Of a stretch of DNA of 22,054 bases, positions 1,874 through 6,366 are shown piece by piece. Positions within the stretch are counted from its first letter, which is position 1. Each line of letters starts with the position of its first letter. Source of the DNA: a virus; IMG/VR virus record IMGVR_UViG_3300034198_013712, positions 1 to 22,054 of that record; one strand, 5' to 3'. Under the pieces are notes generated by a model that worked only from the letters and a program-made list of their open reading frames with translations, did no database searches and had not been told where the DNA came from. A program made the position numbers and the translations under genes.

Positions 1874-1883
1874 TTATAAATAT
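1874..1883 (-). promoter_or_regulatory. Conserved intergenic motif upstream of the 50-residue-repeat gene
   Basis: Exact TTATAAATAT on the plus strand (ATATTTATAA on the coding strand), ending 12 bases before the ATG. It overlaps the last base of the tape measure stop codon. Candidate late promoter element. Confidence 0.5.
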
Positions 1884-4720
1884 TAACGTAATCTTGAGGT
1901 TGACATACCTACTGAAGTTCCTACTTTATTGCCATCCATAGTAACTTTTCCTTCTTTACCTAAAATTTGACCTAATAACTGATTAGTTCTTTTTACTTCA
2001 GCTATTAATTCTTTTTGTTTTTCAATTGCACTCTTAACATCACCAGATACAGTACCTGCTGGAGCGCTTGAAAAGTCATTTACTGGGGTAAGGTCAGTTC
2101 CTGCTAAAATTGTATCTCGGTTATTAAATGAGAATGTCCCTTCAGGGGATAATAAAACACGGTCTCCGTATCCTCCTTTGTTTGAAGCTGGAGATAATAA
2201 GTCATCTGCTGTTTCTCCACCTCCTAAATAACCTTGAGCTGCAGCAACCATAGCTAAAACTGCCGCTGCACCTAATGCAGGTCCAGCAACCGGAATTGCA
2301 GACAAAGATCCTACAATTTTAGGAGAAGCAGATGCTATGCTCTTAAACATATTTCCTTTCTCTTTTTTAGAATTAGCACTAATTTGTTTACCTTCAGCTT
2401 TTTTAGTTTTAACAATGGTTGAGGCAATTTTTTCTCTGCCTTTCATAGTTCTAGAGAGGGCCTTTTCGCTTTTATTTATTTGACCATTAGTTTTATTTTC
2501 TTGTTGTTTAAGTTTATTTAAATTCTTTTGTTTTTTAATCTTATCATCTAAAGCTTTTTTAAGCTTATCTTCTTGCTTCATCAAACTACCATTTACTTTA
2601 CCTTCAGCTTTTTTCTGGTTGGTTAGAGTTTTTTCTTGTTGGTTTTGTTTGGTTTTAGACTTATTTATTTTTTCTTCTAGTTTAAATTTATCACCAGTTA
2701 ATTTATTAAGTCCTTTAATTAAAACTTCATTTTTCTTTAATGCATTTTCTTTAAAAGTTTCAATAGCTGTTACTATAGCTTGATATCCCTTTTGGGCCAT
2801 CTGAAAACCTTTTATAGTAAGATATACACCAGCAATTGCTACAATTATTTTTTGGAAACCTGTTAATTCTTTATTTGCATCTGTAAGATTAGTAACTAAA
2901 TCTGCAATTCCTCCAACAAGCCATATTACTTTTTGAGCAATGAATTCAAATATAGGTTTAATGTTATCTAAAGCACCTTGTATTGCTGGGAGGAGAGCTT
3001 TGCCCATTTCTTGTAGTTTACCTCCTAATTCTTTAACAGGGGCTTCTATTTTTTTAAATATGTCGTAAACATATGTTATTAAATATTCCCCTAATTTAAG
3101 TGCAAATCCAATAATAGGTTTTAAAAGAGATGAAAGAGTTTGAACAGCTCCTAATATTATAGGAAAAATTTTATCCCCCATTTCTTTAAACTTATCTACA
3201 AAACTACCTACGGCATCCATAGGAATAGCTCCACTAAAAGCAGCTAGCAGCTGGGAGATTTTAGGCATAATGTATGATTGGAGTTCCCTTAATGCATCTA
3301 CAAATGGTTTAAAAGCACTATATACACTAGACCATGCTGCTTCTAACCCTTCAGCTCTTCGTTGTAATTGTTCACTTAAAGAAGCACCAGATTGTTGTGC
3401 TTTTAAACCATCTTTATGACCTTCTACTAAATCTCCTTGAATATTAGCTTGCTCTTTTTGAGTAACCATTGCTTTACTAAACTGGTCAAGACTTAGCCCA
3501 GCTGCTTTAGCTAATGATTCTTGTTGGATAACATTTAATTTAGCAAATTCTTCTTGGCCACCCATTTGGTTCATAACCTCTTTCATGGCTTCATCACTTT
3601 TACCATTAAGAGCTAATTCACGAGCTTTTGATAAATTAATGTCTTTACCAGTTAAGAGCTGAGCTTCCATTTCAGCTTCTATAGAATCTTCAATATTAAG
3701 TAATGATTTGGTAGCTGCTACCATTTCATCAATTTCCATTCCCATTTGTTTGGCGGTAAATGCTGCTTTTACTAAAGCATCTTTTTGTCCACCAAATTGT
3801 ATACGAGCATGATATCCGGCTTTAGCTACCGTTTCCATAACTACTTTAATGCTTAAAGCAGATTTGTTTACTTTTTTAAGTTCAACAACTTGATCAGCAA
3901 ATCTTTCAACCATTTCCCCAGCATCTTGACCAGATACTTTAGCCATTTTTTGAAACTCACCTAATGTATCTGCAGAATATCCTGCGAATACATTTAATCG
4001 CATAAATGTGTTAAGGGTTTTCCCGCCTAATTTTTCAGTAGTTTCTAATGCTCCTTGAATAGCGGTAGCAGATTCTACGGCTTGAGCATTAGTAATTCCC
4101 ATTCCTGCTCCTATACCTCGAGCAGCTCCAGCAAGTTTATTAGCAGCACCCTGAGCTATTCCTAGACTTCGAGCCATGCCAACATTTTGGTCACTTATTT
4201 TTTTAGCTGCTTCTTGTCCTTTTTCAAATCCTTCTTTGATTTTATTGACTAATCCTAAAATCATTCCAAAAACAGCTCCAGGCATTGCTGCTGCTAGTGT
4301 TTTAGCCATTGTAGCTGCTACTCTAAGTTTACCAGCTAATCCTAAAGCGGCTTTACCACCATCTGTTAATTTATGAGCTAAATCTTCTCCTTTTTTAGTA
4401 GCTTTTCCAAGTGCATCTGCTACTCTAGTTCCTCCTAATCCTATTTTTCCTAATACTTTTTCAGAGGCTTTAAGGGTGTTACCAAAAAGACCCATAGATT
4501 TATTTAAGTTGCGTTGACGACGTTCAGATTCATCAATTTTACCACTTATTTTATCTTGAGTATTAGAACTTTCTTCTAATTTTTCATTCATCTCATCAAC
4601 AGAGCCATTAAACCCTCGTTGAGAAGAAGTCATTTTATCGATAGATGCAGCTAGATTCTTAATTGTTTTATTGAGTTGCCCCATTAAACCTATTAAATCT
4701 TTTGCTTCTTTACTATCCAT
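1883..4720 (-). CDS. Tail tape measure protein
   Basis: A 945-residue protein that should set tail length and help build the baseplate-tube complex, as T4 gp29 does. The N-terminal ~100 residues are charged and helical (MDSKEAKDLIGLMGQLNKT). A hydrophobic stretch follows near residues 135-165 (MAKTLAAAMPGAVFGMILGL). Long amphipathic helices fill the middle. Another hydrophobic segment, KIIVAIAGVYLTIKG, lies around residue 640. A Lys/Gln/Asn-rich coiled coil of about 120 residues follows, then a strongly hydrophobic Ala/Gly segment near 805-835 (AIPVAGPALGAAAVLAMVAA). The C-terminal tail ends MSTSRLR. Position after the tail tube and chaperone genes, and size as one of the largest ORFs, fit a tape measure. 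It is longer than T4 gp29 (590 residues), suggesting a longer tail. It sits behind its own terminator and motif, so it is probably transcribed separately from the chaperone cassette. Confidence 0.88.
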   Translation of the reverse strand: MDSKEAKDLIGLMGQLNKTIKNLAASIDKMTSSQRGFNGSVDEMNEKLEESSNTQDKISGKIDESERRQRNLNKSMGLFGNTLKASEKVLGKIGLGGTRVADALGKATKKGEDLAHKLTDGGKAALGLAGKLRVAATMAKTLAAAMPGAVFGMILGLVNKIKEGFEKGQEAAKKISDQNVGMARSLGIAQGAANKLAGAARGIGAGMGITNAQAVESATAIQGALETTEKLGGKTLNTFMRLNVFAGYSADTLGEFQKMAKVSGQDAGEMVERFADQVVELKKVNKSALSIKVVMETVAKAGYHARIQFGGQKDALVKAAFTAKQMGMEIDEMVAATKSLLNIEDSIEAEMEAQLLTGKDINLSKARELALNGKSDEAMKEVMNQMGGQEEFAKLNVIQQESLAKAAGLSLDQFSKAMVTQKEQANIQGDLVEGHKDGLKAQQSGASLSEQLQRRAEGLEAAWSSVYSAFKPFVDALRELQSYIMPKISQLLAAFSGAIPMDAVGSFVDKFKEMGDKIFPIILGAVQTLSSLLKPIIGFALKLGEYLITYVYDIFKKIEAPVKELGGKLQEMGKALLPAIQGALDNIKPIFEFIAQKVIWLVGGIADLVTNLTDANKELTGFQKIIVAIAGVYLTIKGFQMAQKGYQAIVTAIETFKENALKKNEVLIKGLNKLTGDKFKLEEKINKSKTKQNQQEKTLTNQKKAEGKVNGSLMKQEDKLKKALDDKIKKQKNLNKLKQQENKTNGQINKSEKALSRTMKGREKIASTIVKTKKAEGKQISANSKKEKGNMFKSIASASPKIVGSLSAIPVAGPALGAAAVLAMVAAAQGYLGGGETADDLLSPASNKGGYGDRVLLSPEGTFSFNNRDTILAGTDLTPVNDFSSAPAGTVSGDVKSAIEKQKELIAEVKRTNQLLGQILGKEGKVTMDGNKVGTSVGMSTSRLR

Positions 4721-4744: not shown

Positions 4745-4772
4745 TAAAAGGCATCGCTTTTACGATGCCTTT
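4743..4772 (-). terminator. Intrinsic terminator after the chaperone cassette
   Basis: On the coding strand there is a perfect 10-bp inverted repeat, AAAGGCATCG / CGATGCCTTT (arms at 4763-4772 and 4747-4756), with a 6-base loop and a TTTTAAT tail. The stem overlaps the TAA stop of the 107-codon ORF. It lies 26 bases before the tape measure start. Confidence 0.85.
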
Positions 4773-5103
4773 ATTGTTGAAATAATTTTTTATTTGGGTT
4801 GGATATATCTACTGGGGTAAATTTAGTAGACTTACCTGGGGTAGGGGAATGATTAGAGTGTTGGTTTGAAGACTCGCTTTGTTTATCATAGAAATCCTGT
4901 ATTCGTTTAAATGTAAAATTCCGAAGCCATACAGGCATATCATAAACCGTATCATAGTCAAATCCACCCTTACCATGAAATACTATTTCATGTATTTGAG
5001 TAAATATATGAACTCTATAATCAGATGTCAGGCCAAAAAAAGTCAGTTGTAATTGGGATGCTGACTCCCTCCTCTGAGCCGTTATCTCCCTCAAAATTAA
5101 ATG
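4771..5103 (-). CDS. Tail assembly chaperone C-terminal extension (T-like ORF), probably made by ribosomal frameshift
   Basis: The frame is open from after a TAA at 5104-5106 and ends with TAA at 4771-4773, overlapping the 3' end of the gp26-like gene by about 80 bases. The part outside the overlap reads GLTSDYRVHIFTQIHEIVF, then DYDTVYDMPVWLRNF and a helical, Gln/Lys-rich tail. That resembles the small helical domains of tail assembly chaperone extensions and T4 gp51-type proteins. There is no ATG before the conserved part. The only upstream start is a TTG at 5092-5094 inside the overlap, without a suitably placed ribosome site. The T7 run at 5035-5041 lies where the two frames would join, so I infer expression as a fusion of about 330 residues with the upstream product. 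Initiation at the TTG (107 residues) is the alternative. Confidence 0.65.
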   Translation of the reverse strand, partial: HLILREITAQRRESASQLQLTFFGLTSDYRVHIFTQIHEIVFHGKGGFDYDTVYDMPVWLRNFTFKRIQDFYDKQSESSNQHSNHSPTPGKSTKFTPVDISNPNKKLFQQ

Positions 5104-5764
5104 TTAGATCAACATCTGGTTGGATTTGTTTAATATATTCTCTAAATGCTCTTGAGTCTCTAGCTAAGAAGTTATTATCTACAAATTCTCTAATACTTGA
5201 ATTATCATCATCTCCATTAATTGAAAGAATCATATGTTTAAAACGAGTAGTTAATTCAGGATTAGTATTTTTAAATGCTTTTTTTAATCCTTTTAATTCA
5301 TTTTCAATTAATTTTTCATCACTTTGAGTTAGCAATTTAAAAGTAATTTCAAATTTAGAAAAAGGTAATGTAAATTTAAATTTATTAATATTAGGAGTTA
5401 ATAAATTCTTTTCATCTAATTCTTTAGATTCAATCTTAGATAAATCTACTGTTACTTTTTCTCCATCGTAGTCAAAAGAATAATCAGATCCATATCCTAA
5501 AATACGAGCTGCTACTAATAATGCGTTTTTATCACCCGTTATTAAATCATCATAATTGATTTTAGAAACAATTAGAGACTGTAATAGTTTATCAATTACA
5601 ATACCTTGTTTAATAAAATTTTGGTTGGTTAAAATGTCTTCCTCTCTAGCGGTCATGTATTTCATTTCTATCTTACCGCTTGATAGAGGATTTTCTTTTG
5701 GATATATTAAACCTTTAGAAGGTAATTCAATAACCTCAGATGGGAATTTTGGCTTTTCACTCAT
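5021..5764 (-). CDS. gp26: gp26-like baseplate/tail assembly chaperone protein (T4_baseplate family)
   Basis: A 247-residue protein. The N-terminal half has the family signature ELPSKGLIYPKENPLSSGK followed by MTAREEDILTNQ and VIDKLLQSLI. I recognise these from the T4 base plate protein family (Pfam PF12322), which includes T4 gp26. In tail gene order this is the chaperone slot: directly after the tail tube and before the tape measure. The protein ends TTDFFWPDI at a TGA 11 bases past a T7 run, and an overlapping ORF continues in another frame. That is the arrangement of two-protein tail assembly chaperones. T4 gp26 is about 208 residues. The gene stands behind a terminator and a candidate promoter, so it may be expressed at a different level from the abundant tube protein upstream. 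Confidence 0.85.
   Translation of the reverse strand: MSEKPKFPSEVIELPSKGLIYPKENPLSSGKIEMKYMTAREEDILTNQNFIKQGIVIDKLLQSLIVSKINYDDLITGDKNALLVAARILGYGSDYSFDYDGEKVTVDLSKIESKELDEKNLLTPNINKFKFTLPFSKFEITFKLLTQSDEKLIENELKGLKKAFKNTNPELTTRFKHMILSINGDDDNSSIREFVDNNFLARDSRAFREYIKQIQPDVDLTFNFEGDNGSEEGVSIPITTDFFWPDI
5035..5041 (-). promoter_or_regulatory. Candidate programmed frameshift site (T7 run)
   Basis: The coding strand reads CTGACTTTTTTTGGCCTGA. In the gp26-like frame this is GAC TTT TTT TGG CCT, and the stop comes at 5021-5023. The downstream ORF reads ACT TTT TTT GGC CTG. Passing from the first to the second frame needs +1 (skipping one T) or -2. A -1 slip would hit TGA at once. An AGGAGG lies about 26 bases upstream, farther than the stimulators known for dnaX or prfB. 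Confidence 0.55.
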
Positions 5765-5877: not shown

Positions 5878-6366
5878 TTAGTAGTTCAATATACAGTAAT
5901 CCATACCTAATGATAAAGTTAGGTTTTGGGCAGCAGCTTCGTTATCCCAATTATATTCACCAAATTCAGCTGACTTGATGAATGCACCTTTAATAATCCA
6001 CTCACTTACTATATCACCTACAGGGCCTAGGATTTCAATTTTTACATCTTTTTTATAAAAATCGGAGTATCCGTCGCGACCTGTTACTGATTCGTGGTGT
6101 AAACGTACCCATTCCATTACTGCTTGAGCACCTGATGGAGTGATCGGATCGAATAATGTTAATGATAAGTCATTCCATTTTAATTTACCTTTAATTTTAC
6201 GGTAAATGTTAATGTGGTTTAATATAATTTCGTCTTGTGCGAAACCCATACCACTTACTGCTTTTATAATATAACTCGGGATGCCATTAACGTACATATA
6301 GAACCTATTCTGTAGTTTTGGTTCAAACGCCGAGAAAAATATTTCGTTAGAATTTAATATTGCCAT
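5878..6366 (-). CDS. gp19: Tail tube protein gp19
   Basis: A 162-residue protein, essentially the length of T4 gp19 (163). It polymerises into the inner tail tube through which DNA passes. The family pattern is clear: an N-terminal FEPKLQNRFYMYVNGIP, then KAVSGMGFAQDEI, and HINIYRKIKGKLKWNDLSL in the region where gp19-family tubes form their beta-barrel. A LFDPITPSGAQAVMEWVRLH segment and a C-terminal GEYNWDNEAAAQNLTLSL also fit. I recognise the family as Phage_T4_gp19 (PF06841). The gene follows the sheath gene with a 44-base gap carrying the conserved motif, and is followed by a strong terminator, in keeping with a very abundant structural product. Confidence 0.95.
   Translation of the reverse strand: MAILNSNEIFFSAFEPKLQNRFYMYVNGIPSYIIKAVSGMGFAQDEIILNHINIYRKIKGKLKWNDLSLTLFDPITPSGAQAVMEWVRLHHESVTGRDGYSDFYKKDVKIEILGPVGDIVSEWIIKGAFIKSAEFGEYNWDNEAAAQNLTLSLGMDYCILNY

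Follow-up and report, generated by a model that had tools for sequence, protein, structure and literature searches.

How the frame behind the end of a gp26-like gene is entered is the question raised by the virus record IMGVR_UViG_3300034198_013712, a stretch of ∼22 kb (22,054 nucleotides; herein the window). Read on the minus strand, the gene ends GAC TTT TTT TGG CCT GAC ATC TGA, with a run of seven T (T7) at 5041-5035 and the stop codon at 5023-5021, 11 bases past the run. A second, overlapping ORF continues to 4771, and the sole start codon ahead of its conserved part is a TTG at 5094-5092. Its frame relative to the gp26-like gene is +1 (equivalently -2); the -1 frame runs TTG GCC TGA and stops immediately. 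The site reads C_TTT_TTT and offers no in-phase -1 heptamer (X_XXY_YYZ) with an open -1 frame. Re-reading the strand thus bore out the first-pass annotation of this DNA, which had described the T-run and the nearby stop, an ORF lacking any start other than the TTG, frames that can be joined only by +1 or -2, and a fused protein of about 330 residues; the +1 fusion is 330 aa long.

The two overlapping ORFs lie between a tail tube gene and a probable tape measure gene (Table 1). The gene order in Flavobacterium phage immuto, where the tape measure gene is annotated, matches that of the window. The hairpin in the gap before the tape measure gene may lower expression of that gene relative to the chaperone. 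On the plus strand, an antisense ORF of 100 codons (5025-5327) covers the gp26 end; the antisense strand over this end is open in 100 of 166 relatives in the commonest frame, no frame is universal, and the openness possibly reflects composition only.

Table 1. Features of the chaperone locus in the window
Feature	Position	Strand	Details
Gp26-like gene, short tail assembly chaperone (TAC-N)	5021..5764	-	247 aa, C-terminal FFWPDI; PHROG_150 E=1.9e-9
+1-frame part, gp51-like C-terminal domain	4771..5034	-	87 codons; conserved GLTxxYR...HEIVFHGKGG...VYxMPxWLR
Putative shift site TTT TTT (T) GGC	5032..5041	-	Codon 1 5041-5039; P-site codon 2 5038-5036; skipped T 5035; GGC 5034-5032
C directly 5' of the T-run	5042	-	T here would give the -1 heptamer T_TTT_TTT
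GAGGAGGG, anti-Shine-Dalgarno complement	5067..5074	-	GGAGG 3' end ∼29 nt upstream of the slip codon
Intrinsic-terminator-like hairpin, gap between chaperone and tape measure genes	4747..4772	-	11-pair stem, AAAGGCATCGTAAAAGCGATGCCTTT then TAATATTTAT
Probable tail tape measure gene, directly downstream	1883..4720	-	945 aa; assigned by position, with PHROG_167 (tape measure) matching weakly at E=0.013
Tail tube gene (gp19-like), directly upstream	5878..6366	-	PHROG_4542 E=8.7e-21

A search with the downstream part returned 80 IMG/VR loci, which were therefore fished by the downstream ORF itself; three gp26-alignment searches and one of bacterial genome contigs, Flavobacteriales MAGs among them, added ∼240 further loci, and those fished by gp26 form the less biased set. 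Profile HMMs of both parts detected the downstream domain in 321 of 326 loci, in the +1 frame every time (321/321); the other five loci are all cut at or near a contig end. The collection includes near-duplicates and reduces to 256 distinct junctions, of which 255 have a scorable site and fall into 166 clusters at <80% aa identity. Divergence among close relatives in the downstream part is distributed 255/131/1032 over the three +1-frame codon positions, a third-position bias indicating that this part is protein-coding. Stops in the +1 frame upstream reach 2 nt before codon 1 of the site, and the closest gp26 stops lie 15 nt after the start of codon 1; with stops on both sides, the shift must fall within ∼17 nt (-2 to +15 around codon 1, or ∼5043-5026 in the window). 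As far as sequence comparison goes, the relatives establish a single reading unit whose second part is in the +1 frame and whose shift is confined to that short interval.

The composition of the site is just as constrained. The 166 clusters read TTT-TTT-TGG (132), TTT-CTT-TGG (16), TTT-TTT-TAC (7), TTT-TTT-TTC (6) and TTT-CTT-TAC (2), with CTT-TTT-TGG, TTC-TTT-TGG and TTT-CTA-TTC once each, so that TTT fills codon 1 in 164 clusters and either TTT or CTT fills codon 2 in 165. Set against the background codon use of the same genes (TTT for 80% of Phe, CTT for 19% of Leu), the near-invariance of TTT-YTT-T shows selection on the bases beyond the amino acids alone. The base before the T-run is also biased: T precedes it in 5 of the 166 clusters, against 91 predicted by codon use, and C or G does so in 150. 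Avoidance of T appears to be explained by removal of a T_TTT_TTT heptamer that would lead into the closed frame; this leaves the avoidance of A unaccounted for. The pairing of a gp26-like gene with a start-less ORF is, on the frame relation and the near-invariant TTT-YTT-T, not a product of chance. The first-pass annotation had expected the T-run and the relative frame to persist while flanking codons drift, and this is the pattern across relatives; no relative turned up whose second ORF has a proper start, which would have spoken against it. One cluster (L084, LR756508 3980-4015), with the junction AAC TTT CTA TTC CCT, is the sole one of the 166 to lack YTT-T at codon 2; a slip at its first TTT would fit.

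The identity of the products was approached through profiles and predicted structures. The gp26-like protein of the window matches PHROG_150 with 38.4 bits (E=1.9e-9, profile positions 9-233) and the +1 fusion with 42.4 bits (E=1.1e-10, 9-264); for the relative LR756508 the score rises from 65.7 to 68.6 bits on fusion and the match reaches profile position 273. The gain through fusion is only 3-4 bits. T4 gp26 (E=6.7e-71, profile 14-235) and T4 gp51 (E=2.6e-84, profile 13-280) match the same family over spans that make gp51 the longer form of the same protein. Because the match to the family of both T4 proteins grows longer on fusion, the shift product is likely the gp51 equivalent, and the gp26/gp51-like reading given at first pass is supported. 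The Pfam family T4_baseplate (PF12322) did not match the window protein, and its cut-off is passed by LR756508, ∼41% identical, at 56.5 bits; single-sequence hhalign of the profiles against T4 gp26 or gp51 gave no match, the link coming via PHROG_150. The gp26-like protein was modeled with AlphaFold2 (pLDDT 92.6). For the N-domain of the model (residues 1-97) the top two of 595 solved chains, both with Z below 8, were YqbN (Z 5.5 over 88 aligned residues, rmsd 4.8), itself the tail chaperone of a phage element, and the HK97 tail assembly chaperone (Z 4.5 over 81 aligned residues, rmsd 5.5). The modeled N-domain resembles these chaperones, with modest scores; Foldseek found no PDB chain for it at E<=0.001. 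The gp26-like model also matches predicted T4-like baseplate hub proteins. The C-domain is modeled as a three-helix domain, with no significant match among viral structures (best E 4e-3).

We propose, with a probability of roughly 80% and on the evidence of sequence, that this is a conserved programmed +1 frameshift by which one gene yields a tail assembly chaperone of two lengths, the long form being the counterpart of T4 gp51. Under this proposal the gp26-like gene and the start-less ORF would be a single gene. Most ribosomes would terminate at the TGA at 5021 and give the short form, akin to T4 gp26, and a fraction would slip forward by one base at the U-run. The P-site tRNA on YUU (UUU in the window, CUU in many relatives) would re-pair with the overlapping UUU while UGG stands in the A site, and decoding of GGC after the slip would give the long form, akin to gp51. 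Both forms would coat the tape measure protein as the tail is put together, like lambda gpG/gpGT. We infer ribosome slippage, its direction (+1 rather than -2), its efficiency and the chaperone function.

The same target frame could be entered by a programmed -2 frameshift, in which the tRNA in the P site steps backward by two bases (YTT to TTY) and one extra residue is inserted, as in Mu. The first-pass annotation had left +1 and -2 side by side; the shared target frame stands, while the site proves to be not simply T7 but TTT-YTT-T, and for some relatives +1 alone fits. Backward pairing suits the majority site TTT-TTT-TGG as well as TTT-CTT-TGG, and -2 shifting is known for Mu and arteriviruses (PMC5009743). 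It would also account for codon 1 being TTT in nearly every cluster, a strictness that a +1 slip at codon 2 does not demand and that fits either -2 or a slip at codon 1. Against it stand the cluster with TTC-TTT-TGG (L116) and phage GXN1 (GAA-TTC-TTT-CGT), where a -2 slip would put tRNA-Phe on UCU and re-pairing is good in the forward direction only; CTA-TTC in L084 also pairs poorly backwards. In known cases, access to the +1 frame is mostly by +1 (PMC5009743), and YTT-T equals the slippery CTTT of prfB, including its rare poly-T variant (PMC12421855). For these reasons we prefer +1 and regard -2 as unlikely. With a +1 slip, the strict TTT at codon 1 may, by analogy, reflect a weak E-site codon, which is reported to favor +1 slippage at CUUUGA (PMC6321510); L084 (TTT-CTA-TTC) and Listeria phage LIS04 (TTT-TTT-AGT) need a codon-1 slip or imperfect pairing. 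The two directions predict different junction peptides, DFFGLTSDYR (+1) or DFFFGLTSDYR (-2) in the window, and in immuto ...GVSFLGLTPEYR after +1 at CTT or ...GVSFLFGLTPEYR after -2.

A separate downstream gene starting at a weak or non-canonical codon of its own, either the TTG at 5094 or the CTG of GGC CTG, is very improbable. The window does have the in-frame TTG and a GGAGG upstream of the site, but the GGAGG lies downstream of that TTG, and the CTG is not conserved (CTA, CTT and CAG occur). In 63 of the 166 clusters the downstream frame is devoid of ATG, GTG and TTG as far as 20 nt beyond the site, stops come within 2 nt of codon 1, and a separate gene would leave the selected TTT-YTT-T unaccounted for. 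Transcriptional slippage at the T-run or a metagenome assembly indel, either of which could fuse the frames through one T fewer, is scarcely credible, as TTTCTTT relatives interrupt the homopolymer and keep the frame, and the arrangement recurs across the 166 divergent clusters as well as in phages that were isolated and sequenced. Independent initiation, transcriptional slippage and assembly error were accordingly rejected on the start-less frames, the TTTCTTT relatives and the isolates.

The account of the site given at first pass holds for the T-run and the frames; it missed a conserved GGAGG ∼29 nt upstream. The motif occurs at -36 to -21 in 73 of the 166 clusters, under half of them, where synonymous codons predict 9.9 with a maximum of 16. 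It sits mostly at -31/-32 and is ∼100 times denser in this interval than elsewhere in gp26; the window has a sole copy of GAGGAGGG. None of the 17 window gene starts that were inspected has an evident Shine-Dalgarno (SD) site. The third codon positions of gp26 lean strongly toward G/C from -45 to -3 (166 clusters; 5042-5086 on the minus strand of the window), with no shift of comparable size before -48. RNA folding did not stand out, the mean z being -0.7 to -0.9 downstream vs. -0.6 in a control window and -0.1 to -0.5 upstream (synonymous third-base shuffles), and RNAalifold on the ungapped stack found no consensus fold. Elsewhere, SD-like elements act at a spacing of 3 nt in prfB and of 8-11 nt for -1 stimulation (PMC12421855, PMC6321510), and Bacteroidia ribosomes conceal the anti-SD unless bS21 is absent (PMC9976891). 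Microcystis phage Mel-JY01, a cyanophage with the +1 arrangement, has genes mostly with SD-like sites. We tentatively raise the idea, doubtful as it is, that the +1 sense-codon shift is stimulated by a new long-range signal composed of the anti-SD complement and the G/C-ending codons of the last 45 nt. It would operate in phages with few SD sites at their other genes, and in probable hosts where bS21 keeps the anti-SD out of reach. The distance of ∼29 nt is roughly one ribosome footprint, and such a signal could act via a trailing, SD-held ribosome or via a ribosome subpopulation without bS21.

The +1 arrangement is found in isolated phages, namely immuto (AGC TTT CTT TGG), Mel-JY01 (AAC TTT TTT TGG), Rhodothermus phage RM378 (TCC TTT TTT TGG), Bacillus phage SP-15 (GAA TTT TTT CAC), LIS04 (GAG TTT TTT AGT) and GXN1 (GAA TTC TTT CGT). 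In immuto (locus L082, 6136-6246), SP-15 (L334, 1721-1840) and RM378 (L330, 3201-3377), the annotation gives the C-domain behind the shift site as a short hypothetical ORF with an internal start, or puts such an ORF in its place. Many T4-like phages of the +1 group probably have marine and freshwater Bacteroidota as hosts, and the window phage would also infect Bacteroidota, judging from its relatives and its lack of SD sites. A homologous gp26-like gene with a putative shift site at Phe-Phe codons near its end is present in the jumbo phages RaK2, CBB, PA5oct, XacN1, RAS14, Atu_ph07 and Phosso (loci L332 and L335-L340). In contrast to the window group, which shuns a T before the run and uses +1, in all seven a T precedes TTT TTY and the second frame lies at -1. 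The direction of the shift therefore appears to differ inside one family at an identical position, and the base ahead of the run is its apparent determinant. For the chaperones of Vandenendeviridae, T4-related phages compared by description only, -1 shifting at poly-T (GTTTTT) is reported (PMC12846349). 

Several known systems frame the proposed +1 shift. The lambda pair gpG/gpGT is made by a -1 shift, as opposed to +1 at TTT-YTT-T in the window group, and a conserved frameshift in long-tail chaperones was reportedly described by Xu et al. in 2004. A review has this G-T frameshift conserved "except T4" (PMC5009743). The T4 pair gp26/gp51 (PF12322, PHROG_150) belongs to the same protein family as the window chaperone and likewise has short and long forms; in T4 these are separate genes on opposite strands, whereas the window group would use one gene and a frameshift. 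Separate short and long chaperone genes in some T4-like phages are reported from Vladimirov 2022 by PMC10885494, and 0305phi8-36 also has the two-gene form (PMC2147016). The +1 shift of prfB (RF2) at CUU_UGA_C likewise has a YUU in the P site with U as the next base, a tRNA that re-pairs with UUU, and an internal anti-SD complement upstream. Its slippery YTTT is present in 165 of the 166 clusters, but the stop (UGA) in its A site is replaced here by a sense codon (UGG, UAC or UUC), and its SD-like element lies 3 nt rather than ∼29 nt upstream. A tail chaperone of the haloarchaeal myovirus HSTV-2 likely also uses a +1 shift (PMC5009743); it is an archaeal virus, compared by description only. 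Tail-chaperone frameshifting is thus already known, as are -1 shifts at poly-T in some T4-like chaperones and a suspected +1 in an archaeal myovirus. The first-pass claim of novelty does not extend to chaperone frameshifting as such, which is classical; what looks new is a family-wide +1 shift at sense codons within a T4-like lineage.

On this reading, a single gene and a forward shift would supply the gp26/gp51 pair in a large T4-related lineage, while homologues appear to shift by -1 and T4 uses two genes. In the annotated genomes of immuto, RM378 and SP-15, the long form would be truncated or missing. Within a single protein family, the switch of frameshift direction at one pair of codons would thereby be open to study as a natural experiment, and the distant GGAGG is an unexplained, testable signal in hosts believed to make no use of Shine-Dalgarno sequences.
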